From the NCBI GenBank assembly GCA_009846685.1, contig VWVY01000006.1, forward strand, positions 124,001 to 188,000: a stretch of DNA of 64,000 bases, given 5' to 3'. The DNA comes from Rhizobiales bacterium SYSU XM002 (GTDB lineage: Bacteria > Pseudomonadota > Alphaproteobacteria > Rhizobiales > Beijerinckiaceae). The notes beneath the pieces were generated by a model. The model was given only the letters and a program-made list of their open reading frames with translations. It did not search any database and was not told where the DNA came from. The position numbers and the translations under genes are program-made. Shown one piece after another: positions 38,403 through 42,024 of the stretch; within the stretch, counting starts at the first letter, position 1, and every line of letters starts with the position of its first letter.

Positions 38403-39362
38403 ATGCTCGATCGTCTTGTCCCGCCACCCGACGGAATCGCCTTTCCGGCGGGCATGACGTGCACGCTTGTTGCGGCACCCGACGGCCTCCGGCTGCGCCT
38501 CGCCTTCCTGCCGGCGAGGGAGCAAGGGAAGGGCACGGTCTTCGTCTTGCAGGGGCGCGCGGAGTTCATCGAGAAATACGGTGAGGTTTTCGCCGAACTG
38601 CACGCGCGCGGTTTTGCTGTCGCGACGCTCGACTGGCGGGGTCAGGGAGGCTCCGAACGGCAACTGCGCAACCCACGCAAAGGACACGTCGAGGACTTCG
38701 ATGACTATCTCCTCGATCTCGACACGCTGGTTGCCGAGGCCGAGAAGCAGGGCATGCCGAAACCTTTCGGCGTGCTCGCTCATTCGACCGGTGCCTGCAT
38801 CGCCCTGATGGCGGCCGGGCGCGGCGAAACACGCTTCCGCCGCATGGTGATGACGGCGCCGCTAACGGGCATCGCCGGCCTGAAATTCCCCGGCGCTGCG
38901 CGCGTTCTTGCCCGCACGCTCACCAGCCTCGGCCTGGCGACTTTCTTCGTTCCCGGCGGCAATAACCAATCCGTTTCGGAAAAGCCGTTCGAGGGCAATG
39001 TCCTGACGAGCGATCCCGATCGTTTTGCTACGGCGCACCGATGGCTGGAAGTGGAGCCATCCCTCGCGATCGGCGATCCGACCATCGGCTGGACCGATGC
39101 CGCTTTCGATGCGATGGCCGATTTTCAGGAAGAGGACTTCGGCCGCGAGAACCGCGCACCGATCCTGATGTTGCTGGCCGGAGCCGATCAGGTTGTCGAC
39201 ACCGCCGCCAGCGAGGCACTGGCCCGCCGGATGCGCGAAGCGAGCGCAGTTATCCTGCCCGGCGCACAGCACGAAATCCTGATGGAGAACGATTCGATCC
39301 GCATGCGCTTCTGGGCAGCGTTCGACGCCTTCATGCGGCTTGAGGTAGAGGTTGAGCCCTAG
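38403..39362 (+). CDS. alpha/beta hydrolase, lysophospholipase-like
   Basis: This 319-residue hydrolase matches the serine aminopeptidase S33/lysophospholipase (PldB-like) type. It has LQGRAEFIEKYGE, the DWRGQGGS strand-loop and nucleophile Ser128 in AHSTGA. The acid residue Asp is likely in AGADQVV, and the catalytic His in GAQHEIL near the C-terminus. No signal peptide is seen, so it is cytoplasmic. It starts 25 bases after the preceding gene and overlaps the convergent hisN gene by four bases at their 3' ends. Confidence 0.85.
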   Translation: MLDRLVPPPDGIAFPAGMTCTLVAAPDGLRLRLAFLPAREQGKGTVFVLQGRAEFIEKYGEVFAELHARGFAVATLDWRGQGGSERQLRNPRKGHVEDFDDYLLDLDTLVAEAEKQGMPKPFGVLAHSTGACIALMAAGRGETRFRRMVMTAPLTGIAGLKFPGAARVLARTLTSLGLATFFVPGGNNQSVSEKPFEGNVLTSDPDRFATAHRWLEVEPSLAIGDPTIGWTDAAFDAMADFQEEDFGRENRAPILMLLAGADQVVDTAASEALARRMREASAVILPGAQHEILMENDSIRMRFWAAFDAFMRLEVEVEP

Positions 39363-40138
39363 CCCTTCAGCGCCCTGAGCGCTTGCTCGTGCAACTCCGG
39401 CGTCGCAGCGGCGAGAATCCGCCCCCCGTCCTTGGCGCTCTGGCCCTCCCAGGTGGTGACGACGCCACCAGCGCCTTCGATGATCGGGATCAGCGCGACG
39501 ATGTCGTAGGCCTTGAGCCCGGTCTCTATCACGAGGTCGACCTGCCCGGATGCAAGCATCGCGTAGGCATAGCAATCCGTGCCGTAACGCGCGAGCCGGA
39601 CCTTGCTTTCAACCCGTGCATAGGCCGGTCCGTCACCATCGCGGAACAGACGCGGATCGGTCGTCATCAGATAGGCATCCGCCAGCGCCTTGCACTGGCT
39701 CGCCTGCAACTCACGCCGTCCACGCGGCCCTTTGAGCCAAGCCTTACCGCCATCGCCGACGAACATTTCCCCAGTGTACGGCTGGTTCATGAGCCCCATC
39801 GCCGGCTTACCGCCGCGCATCAGCCCGATCAGCGTCCCCCATACGGGCAACCCGCAAATGAACGAGCGTGTGCCGTCGATCGGATCAACCACCCAGAGAT
39901 ACTCGGCGTCCGGCCTTTCCGCTTCGAATTCCTCACCGAGGATACCGTGCGTCGGAAAGGCCGCGTTGATGGCCCGGCGGATGACGATCTCAGCCGCACG
40001 ATCTGCTTCGGTCACCGGGTCGAAGCGATGCCCGTCCTTGTCATCGACCCGCATCTGCGTGCGGAAGAAGGGCAGGATCGCCTCGCCCGATTGGCGGGCA
40101 AGCGTCTCGATGAAAGCGGAAAGATCGACCGGTCGCAT
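39359..40138 (-). CDS. hisN: inositol monophosphatase family protein, HisN-type histidinol-phosphatase
   Basis: This 259-residue Mg-dependent phosphatase carries the IMPase metal site: Glu69/Glu70 in LGEEFE, Asp85 and Asp88 in WVVDPIDGTRSF, and a final Asp in KAYDIVALIPIIEGAGG. The FICGLP variant after the DPIDGT motif and the length fit the histidinol-phosphatase (HisN) group of alphaproteobacteria rather than SuhB of E. coli. It would dephosphorylate histidinol phosphate. The plus-strand suhB/MmgR-type sRNA starts about 220 bases away in the divergent direction. Confidence 0.85.
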   Translation of the reverse strand: MRPVDLSAFIETLARQSGEAILPFFRTQMRVDDKDGHRFDPVTEADRAAEIVIRRAINAAFPTHGILGEEFEAERPDAEYLWVVDPIDGTRSFICGLPVWGTLIGLMRGGKPAMGLMNQPYTGEMFVGDGGKAWLKGPRGRRELQASQCKALADAYLMTTDPRLFRDGDGPAYARVESKVRLARYGTDCYAYAMLASGQVDLVIETGLKAYDIVALIPIIEGAGGVVTTWEGQSAKDGGRILAAATPELHEQALRALKG

Positions 40139-40323
40139 GAATTCCCCTGCTTTGGCTCACGCGAAAAGAGCCGTCATCCCTATGACTGAGCCGCGCTCTT
40201 GCCGCAAGCTGCGCAAGGCCAGACAACCGACTGCAATTAAATAAGAATTTTCCCTGTTCCCAAAATTATCGGCTTTTCGGGGTTCGTTGGCTCAAAAAAA
40301 ATGCCTACCGCGAGCGATAGGAC

Positions 40324-40351
40324 TTGTTTTTTGTGCGCCGCAATATATATT
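40324..40351 (+). promoter_or_regulatory. promoter of the MmgR-type sRNA
   Basis: TTGTTT (40324-40329) and TATATT (40346-40351) are spaced by 16 bases and would place the start near 40358, at the 5' base of the sRNA's first hairpin. The AT-rich segment stands out from its surroundings. Confidence 0.7.
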
Positions 40352-40357
40352 CAGGTT

Positions 40358-40442
40358 GTCACGACGGTTCGCCCTCGTGACATGCCCTCCTTGGGCGTTT
40401 CCTCCCTAGACTTTTAAGGCCGCTTCGTGCGGCCTTTTTTTT
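40358..40442 (+). ncRNA. small RNA of the suhB / MmgR (alpha-r8) family
   Basis: This ~85-base RNA lies in the 409-base gap between divergent hisN and the N-formylglutamate amidohydrolase. Hairpin 1 is GTCACGA/TCGTGAC (40358-40364/40375-40381). Hairpin 2 is GCCC-TCCTT-GGGC (40384-40396). A single-stranded CCTCCCT follows (40401-40407). The terminator is AAGGCCGC/GCGGCCTT with a T8 tract (40416-40442). Two exposed CU-rich segments can bind Shine-Dalgarno sequences, as in the rhizobial MmgR RNA, which affects storage granules and depends on Hfq. From memory, S. meliloti mmgR lies in the same gene context. The rest of the gap holds a second stem, GCCGG/CCGGC with a T6 run (40444-40471), perhaps a backup terminator. 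Confidence 0.82.
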
Positions 40443-40547
40443 GGCCGGAATTCAAAACCGGCTCCTTTTTTGGGCTCGCTCCCAATCTGCTGCGGGTTTT
40501 CGAGCCTCGGCCTGCCACTTTCCGTGGAGCGCCTCCCTGATTTGCCC

Positions 40548-41462
40548 TTATTCAGCAGCCTTCTGCAAAAATTGCAAGGCCGTTTTGTGAAAATCGAATA
40601 GCTTGGTTTCCGCGACCGAGACGACGAGATCGGCTATCGCGCCGGATAACGCCTCGGCAACGCCGACAAATCCGGCATTCATCTCAAGGCGCGCCTCGTC
40701 CATGTAGAGCGCCCGGCTCACCTCGATCTGCAACGCGTGCCAGCCAAGGTCCGGCCGCCCGTAGTGCTCGGTGATATAGCCGCCGGCGTAGGGCTGGTTG
40801 CGCTCGACGCGGAAGCCGGCGCCGCGGAACGCCTTTTCGGCCGCCACCATCAGTGGCGCAGCGCAACTTCCGCCGAACCGGTCGCCCAGCACGATATCCG
40901 GCATGACCCGCGACACCGACTGTGACGGCATGGAATGCAGGTCGAGCAATACGACCGCACCGTGGCGTGCGTGCCGCAACGCGAGTTCGCGATGGAGACG
41001 CATGTGGTAGGGCACATAGGCCTGGTCGATCCGCGTCAGCGCTTCCTCGAGGCTGATCTTGCCGGCATAGATCTCGATCTGATCACCGATGACGCGCGGC
41101 ACCGTGCCGAGCCCGCCGGCGACACGCAGCGAGCGCGTGTTGGCCTCTGCCGGCAAGACGCCCGCAATCAGTCGCGGATCGAGTTCAAGCGGTTCACGGT
41201 TGAGATCGAGATAGGACCGGGGCAGCCGCGCACGCATCAGCGGCAACCCCGCTGCAACCGCCGGCGCGAACAGCCGTTCGACATAAAGATCCGACGCCTT
41301 GCGCAGCACCTCACGTCGCAACTGGCTGCGCGCAAGAAAATCGGGTGGGAACATATCGCCCGAGTGCGGCGAGTTGAGGAAAAACGGCGTTTCCAGCGAC
41401 GTCGCATTCTCGATCGTATAGACGCCTTCCGCTGACGATTCGGATTTCGGCGTCGCCGCCAT
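40548..41462 (-). CDS. N-formylglutamate amidohydrolase family protein
   Basis: This 304-residue enzyme belongs to the FGase family, which hydrolyses N-formylglutamate to glutamate and formate at the end of one histidine degradation route. Recognisable motifs are SPHSGDMFP near residue 31, RSYLDLNREPLELDP, VLLDLHSMPS, and YAGGYITEHYG, with conserved His and Glu residues that bind the metal. No hut genes are in the window, so its real substrate may differ. It lies between the MmgR-type sRNA and cpdR, as in other Rhizobiales. A paralogue lies at 46633-47451. Confidence 0.85.
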   Translation of the reverse strand: MAATPKSESSAEGVYTIENATSLETPFFLNSPHSGDMFPPDFLARSQLRREVLRKASDLYVERLFAPAVAAGLPLMRARLPRSYLDLNREPLELDPRLIAGVLPAEANTRSLRVAGGLGTVPRVIGDQIEIYAGKISLEEALTRIDQAYVPYHMRLHRELALRHARHGAVVLLDLHSMPSQSVSRVMPDIVLGDRFGGSCAAPLMVAAEKAFRGAGFRVERNQPYAGGYITEHYGRPDLGWHALQIEVSRALYMDEARLEMNAGFVGVAEALSGAIADLVVSVAETKLFDFHKTALQFLQKAAE

Positions 41463-41664: not shown

Positions 41665-42024
41665 ATGACCAAGATCCTTCTTGCCGAAGACGACAACGAC
41701 ATGCGGCGTTTCCTGGTCCGCGCGCTTCAGAACGCGGGCTATGACGTTGCCTCCTTCGACAACGGGCGTTCGGCATATCATCGCTTGCGTGAGGAGCCGT
41801 TCGAACTGCTCCTGACTGACATCGTCATGCCGGAAATGGATGGAATCGAACTCGCGCGCCGCGCGACCGAACTCGACCCCGACATCAAGGTGATGTTCAT
41901 CACCGGTTTCGCCGCTGTGGCGCTCAATCCGGAATCGAATGCGCCGAAGGATGCGCGCGTCCTCTCCAAGCCGTTCCACCTTAAGGACCTTGTCAATCAG
42001 GTGAAGCAAATGCTCGCCGCCTGA
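41665..42024 (+). CDS. cpdR: single-domain response regulator CpdR
   Basis: CpdR in its unphosphorylated form brings ClpXP to the pole and primes it to degrade cell-cycle substrates; the CckA-ChpT phosphorelay switches it off. The 119-residue protein is only a receiver domain, with acidic pocket Asp9/Asp10, phospho-acceptor Asp52 in LTDIVMPEMDG, Thr80 in FITGFAA, and Lys102 in SKPF. The ending VNQVKQMLAA is typical of CpdR. A perfect palindrome, CGGGAAATTTCCCG (42051-42064), lies 27 bases after the stop. Confidence 0.92.
   Translation: MTKILLAEDDNDMRRFLVRALQNAGYDVASFDNGRSAYHRLREEPFELLLTDIVMPEMDGIELARRATELDPDIKVMFITGFAAVALNPESNAPKDARVLSKPFHLKDLVNQVKQMLAA

Follow-up and report, generated by a model that had tools for sequence, protein, structure and literature searches.

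An MmgR-type small RNA of a Rhizobiales bacterium with a putative operator for the PHB sensor PhaR in its promoter, a pattern that recurs in relatives across the order

Sinorhizobium meliloti accumulates more PHB and phasins when its small RNA MmgR loses the conserved core, and its mmgR gene is repressed by AniA (PhaR) (PMC8401924, PMC7143759, PMC12542648). PhaR binds the S. meliloti mmgR promoter efficiently in EMSA; one PhaR site, CAATTGTGCACCGCAGCATTA, is listed for this promoter, and a 21-bp PhaR consensus, WNWDDNYGCRNYGCRNHHWNW, has been published (PMC12542648). In Caulobacter, the Hfq-associated RNA SisA uses its 10-mer to pair with the mRNA of a TonB-dependent receptor immediately before the start codon, as compensatory mutants showed (PMC12559287). 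MmgR as a kind of RNA and the control of mmgR by PhaR in S. meliloti are thus already known. In the available text of the literature searched, neither an order-wide conservation of this control nor a second operator is mentioned; the original papers on MmgR (Lagares 2016, Lagares 2017, Ceizel Borella 2018) lie outside that search.

The window, i.e. the whole 64,000-nucleotide stretch of DNA analysed here, carries an RNA gene that the first-pass annotation had assigned to the suhB/MmgR (alpha-r8) family, and a covariance-model search with the Rfam suhB model bore this out. RF00519 (suhB), whose Rfam description line reads 'Makes More Granules Regulator RNA (mmgR)', matches positions 40377-40449 of the plus strand over the full model length (1-77) with 63.8 bits against a cutoff of 41 (E 8.1e-11 in the 64-kb search), and it is the single match in the genome. 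No other Rfam family came near its own cutoff in 40150-40550; RyhB, BjrC1505 and others were rejected as identities of the RNA, with Rfam scores far under cutoff. Since the E value of this match is joined by a core that is near-invariant in 63 aligned copies, a chance resemblance is excluded. The family is widespread: 259 of the 297 genomes of the order have at least one suhB match with an E value of 0.001 or lower (235 of them above the cutoff), each such genome having between one and ten, and a sample of the window's own family has a match in 58 of 60 genomes, with up to 14 matches.

The predicted transcript of 85 nt (40358-40442, plus strand), whose start is inferred and which overlaps the Rfam match, folds into three hairpins at the expected places (-37.5 kcal/mol, z = -5.5, with none of 200 shuffles as good). 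The 7-bp 5' hairpin (40358-40381) is formed by GTCACGA and TCGTGAC, 40358-40364 pairing with 40375-40381. It lies outside the helices of the Rfam model, a circumstance absent from the first-pass annotation, as is its recurrence with different sequences in relatives. Of 110 syntenic copies, 88% have a 5' stem of at least 6 bp, the corresponding figure for shuffles being 47%, and the 107 syntenic copies with a stem of 5 bp or more have 83 distinct 5' arms. In a covariation test on the alignment, RNAalifold left the 5' region unpaired; this hairpin varies in length and is poorly aligned by MAFFT, so that beyond the fold itself the shuffle test is its sole support. The second hairpin (40384-40396), a GCCC/GGGC stem, exposes the loop TCCTT (40388-40392), the first anti-Shine-Dalgarno segment. 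All four of its pairs are unchanged in 63 of 63 aligned copies, and the stem therefore gives no covariation evidence either way; the loop is largely conserved, with one position C or T and two more nearly invariant.

Directly behind this hairpin lies the conserved 10-mer TTTCCTCCCT (40398-40407), the alpha-r8 core and second anti-Shine-Dalgarno segment. As UUUCCUCCCU it is invariant in 63 of 63 aligned copies and unpaired in the fold, and the unit formed by GCCC, loop, GGGC and 10-mer is nearly invariant across the same alignment. A single-stranded 10-mer after a weak hairpin is what characterizes the alpha-r8 RNAs in the available text of PMC12559287, and this arrangement is found here. An intrinsic, Rho-independent terminator as expected in the family closes the RNA (40416-40442, plus strand); its 8-bp stem (40416-40436) shows compensatory changes in the 63-copy alignment, and its T run ends at 40442. 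A further hairpin (GCCGG...CCGGC) with a T run follows directly at 40444-40471 on the plus strand and is perhaps a back-up terminator. The 7-bp hairpin, the TCCTT loop, the unpaired CCTCCCT and the T8 terminator are thus present and folded just as first described.

The RNA gene is preceded by hisN (39359-40138, minus strand; histidinol-phosphatase, TIGR02067 above cutoff) and followed by an N-formylglutamate amidohydrolase-like gene (FGase; 40548-41462, minus strand) and cpdR (41665-42024, plus strand; NF046022 above cutoff). These are the neighbours that had been named from the sequence, and the order hisN - mmgR - FGase - cpdR recurs in many relatives. For all three neighbours, locus L085 of genome G272, which belongs to the genus of the window, gave BLAST values equal to those of L034 from Rhabdaerophilum calidifontis; judged by this protein similarity, the window would come from a Rhabdaerophilum-like species. 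Linkage to an N-formylglutamate amidohydrolase gene, another mark of alpha-r8 RNAs, is therefore found here. The FGase-like protein itself is an N-formylglutamate amidohydrolase relative and not clearly a histidine-degradation enzyme, because its 96.6 bits are far under the TIGR02017 (HutG) cutoff of 278.75. With Rfam match, anatomy, fold and gene order all confirmed, the element joins the alpha-r8/MmgR family as a new but ordinary member. It resembles S. meliloti MmgR in Rfam family, core, terminator, PhaR dyad in the promoter (PMC12542648) and single copy (PMC12559287), and differs from it in the predicted length (about 85 nt against 77) and in the more AT-rich flanks of the operator. With SisA-SisD of Caulobacter crescentus it shares the same 10-mer next to a weak hairpin and, with SisA, the FGase neighbour (PMC12559287); unlike the single gene found here, Caulobacter has four copies, and the available text of PMC12559287 reports that the regions upstream of sisA-D yielded no common motif.

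A terminator-like site on the minus strand (40294-40321; stem from 40321 to 40304, then a T run) stands just before the mmgR -35 box. If it works, the FGase mRNA may cross mmgR in antisense in the window's clade, and the main action of the RNA could then be that of an antisense partner, or go by way of one, with FGase transcripts reading through to 40304 and the two RNAs silencing each other in cis. The position of the site, the absence of any detected opposite-strand terminator in the interval from mmgR to FGase across 88 syntenic copies, and, by eye, an A-run with a hairpin of different sequence in close relatives (clear in L033 and in L034 of Rhabdaerophilum calidifontis, less marked in L032 and L035, lacking in L036) would agree with such a role. 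However, an opposite-strand terminator is present in just 13 of the 88 syntenic copies (7 of 88 on the control strand) and may merely insulate hisN. It was accordingly rejected as a family feature, antisense action is not the general mechanism of the family, and we regard it as quite improbable that it is the main one here.

The promoter first proposed, TTGTTT-N16-TATATT, is present with its -35 box at 40324-40329, its -10 box at 40346-40351 and a spacing of 16 nt. TTGTTT agrees with TTGACA at 3 of 6 positions, and a generic sigma-70 scan of 39800-41000 returned no promoter at all, missing that of mmgR as well. An alternative -35 box, CTTGTT (40323-40328, spacer 17 nt), would correspond to the rhizobial type of start with CTTG. 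Relatives argue for the promoter: among 174 copies examined, 137 bear a dyad, and in 86 of these a TTG begins at the same distance from the first dyad as it does in the window, exactly 10 nt ahead of it. The failed scan could be taken to mean that the locus is a decayed relic that still matches Rfam but no longer works as a gene. The conserved promoter elements, the intact helices and a core identical to that of distant relatives all contradict this, and a relic is hardly conceivable.

Between the two boxes of this promoter, at 40328-40348, lies a putative PhaR (AniA)-type operator that the first-pass annotation had passed over. It agrees with the published consensus at 21 of 21 positions, is the single match of that consensus in the window, and carries its core dyad TGC-GCC-GCA at 40334-40342. 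The full consensus occurs at 18 sites in the 3.46-Mb genome and a backwards-pattern control also at 18, so that the match by itself is weak, most of the 18 sites may be due to chance, and position and conservation carry the operator claim.

The same genome contains phaR (TIGR01848, 150.8 bits against a cutoff of 109.45) and hfq, also above cutoff. In front of a phasin gene on C14, a full-consensus site stands 117 nt from the likely ATG, with a second dyad beside it, and another lies 144 nt before a PHB depolymerase gene (L082). A second phasin gene has two core dyads around a TTGACA box, the two phasin loci with paired dyads being L037 and L173. Upstream of the third of the phasin genes over the Pfam cutoff there is only the GC-rich, chance-like CGCGGCGCG, which was left uncounted as a dyad. 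No PHB link was seen among the neighbours looked at for the other full-consensus sites, and these may be chance occurrences. The picture is similar to the S. meliloti PhaR (AniA) regulon, with dyads at phasin, PHB depolymerase and mmgR promoters and with two dyads at two phasin promoters, as at phaP1 and phaP2 (PMC12542648); it differs from that regulon in that the sites here are putative and the third phasin gene is without a convincing dyad.

Could the RNA be a true MmgR orthologue whose promoter dyad is read by another regulator such as NtrC, with PhaR playing no role here? NtrC activates S. meliloti mmgR, and one review ties the control by NtrC and AniA to a dyadic motif between -35 and -10 (PMC8401924, PMC7143759). 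The lack of enrichment of the PhaR pattern over the backwards control would fit such a regulator as well. However, the dyad TGC-N3-GCA agrees throughout with the PhaR consensus as published, and the same dyad stands before two phasin genes and the PHB depolymerase gene. The NtrC site, moreover, is a longer dyad. Together with the scarcity of the dyad among copies of phaR-less genomes, given below, these points make another regulator unlikely, and we retain PhaR as the candidate reader of the operator.

Conservation was followed in 127 copies from 117 sources (the window, five named relatives and further genomes). The core dyad YGCRNYGCR occurs 28-70 nt before the core in 111 of them, 72 copies having two dyads, 39 one and 16 none; about 0.07 dyads per copy would be expected by chance, and the reversed pattern was met once in the same interval. 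These counts are not independent, because the copies were chosen as best-scoring or related and share ancestry. Where two dyads are present, they are mostly 21 bp apart (46 of 76 pairs in the 127-copy set), usually around the -10 box, and 62 pairs with this distance give the consensus CTTGcttTTTGTGCggcGCannngCATaTTnTTGCagtGCGgcA, in which -35, dyad, -10 and a dyad over the expected start follow one another. The window and the five named relatives have the first dyad only. Tandem arrays of three and five MmgR copies, each with its own dyad or dyads, were observed at two hisN-FGase loci (L125 and L131).

When the comparison was widened by phaR-less genomes and their relatives to 174 copies from 116 genomes, 137 copies had a dyad and 92 two or more. 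The 37 copies without one comprise 26 of the 62 located away from the hisN/FGase locus and 11 of the 112 located at it. By family, a dyad is present in 83 of 98 copies in the window's own family (f1), 11 of 12 in f16, 15 of 26 in f35 and 1 of 10 in f23, and every one of the 12 sampled families of the order whose core could be read has it before at least one copy. In family f23, which possesses phaR, the dyad is mostly imperfect (for example GCACTGCC) and was scored as absent; the family accounts for 7 of the 10 syntenic exceptions among the genomes classed as phaR-bearing. At seven f23 loci (L012, L216, L221, L222, L224, L226 and L228) the dyad is imperfect, and in five of them GCACTGCC lies next to the -10 box; a shift of operator specificity is possible there. 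As far as such sequence comparisons go, the distribution suggests an order-wide control of MmgR by the PHB sensor.

Genomes lacking phaR point in the same direction. Among the 297 genomes of the order, a suhB match is absent from 25 of the 49 without phaR and from 13 of the 248 with it (Fisher p 7e-14, uncorrected for kinship, some of the genomes without a match being identified by elimination). The 24 further phaR-less genomes keep a match, 15 of these only below the Rfam cutoff. A dyad is found in 1 of 7 copies of phaR-less genomes that are at least 90% complete and in 130 of the 161 remaining copies (p 0.0005), where copies share ancestry, six of the seven phaR-less copies lie away from the hisN locus, and the group of 161 includes copies of two genomes (G343 and G346) from outside the phaR survey. 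Set apart from this comparison were G302 (93% complete, with two dyads, its congener G337 having phaR) and four genomes under 90% complete, whose five copies all have a dyad. Six loci in which no core was found (L182, L229-L232 of family f34, and L249) were dropped; L182, from the phaR-less G214, showed no dyad as read. When 30 loci were read for phaR loss, 20 were below the Rfam cutoff, two of these 20 being without CCTCC and 18 without a dyad, with at least three of the 18 anchored on a CCTCC far from the suhB match. Because of the exceptions, the incomplete genomes and the lost gene order, the idea that loss of phaR is followed by loss of the RNA and its dyad is a lead only.

Taken jointly, these comparisons would allow MmgR to belong to the core of the PhaR regulon in the whole order. 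Its ancestral promoter would have carried a pair of PhaR operators separated by roughly two helical turns, the first in the gap from -35 to -10 and the second covering the transcription start, with the PHB granule sensor clamping the start site. Lineages that lose phaR would lose the operators, and the window's clade would have shed the second operator and gained the opposite-strand terminator before the promoter, leaving the FGase mRNA antisense across the whole small RNA. We consider this composite history evenly balanced between true and false.

As to what the RNA does, the first-pass annotation had proposed that its two exposed CU-rich segments block ribosome binding on target mRNAs. Such pairing is published for the SisA 10-mer, with which that of the window RNA is identical; the published pairing uses the 10-mer and not the segment in the TCCTT loop (PMC12559287), and for S. 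meliloti MmgR the available text of PMC7143759 and PMC12559287 states that neither a direct target nor a pairing had yet been found. The proposal thus has direct published backing from Caulobacter SisA and not from MmgR. The MmgR copy of the window probably blocks the translation of other messages. Complements of 40396-40407 (12 bases, at most one mismatch) occur at 27 places in the genome, mmgR itself included, against 11 for the backwards pattern. At eight of the 26 other places a start codon follows no more than 27 nt from where the match begins, with an open frame of at least 100 codons, and seven of the eight matched Pfam: two DctP binding proteins and NMT1-like, vanillate demethylase-like oxygenase, FAA hydrolase-related, cupin and Mpo1-like proteins. 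These candidate targets would fit a carbon-uptake regulon; the list is weak, because purine-rich ribosome sites would give such matches anyway. Direct targeting of phasins through pairing at the ribosome-binding site is not supported: their best start reaches no higher than the top 18% among 84 starts used for comparison, which belong to mechanical ORFs of the window and not to curated genes.

We put the probability of the following explanation as a whole at about 0.85: the locus encodes an MmgR small RNA with a sigma-70-type promoter that represses mRNAs through its 10-mer and Hfq, is itself repressed by PhaR, and is relieved by PHB in a feedback. By analogy with S. meliloti and Caulobacter, the promoter would be expressed to give an RNA of about 85 nt, whose unpaired 10-mer, assisted by Hfq, would pair with purine-rich ribosome-binding sites, the CUCCUU of the hairpin loop perhaps helping. 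The paired mRNAs, probably those of uptake and carbon-use genes, would be repressed. PhaR bound between -35 and -10 would repress mmgR transcription; PHB granules would draw PhaR away, MmgR would rise, and further storage and uptake would be limited. It is from the SisA pairing and the MmgR and AniA phenotypes of S. meliloti that a feedback among PHB, PhaR and MmgR would be expected here. For the biology of the family, the pattern in the promoter outweighs the gene itself, which is one more MmgR: if that pattern holds order-wide, MmgR would generally serve as an output of the PHB sensor, and not just in rhizobia.
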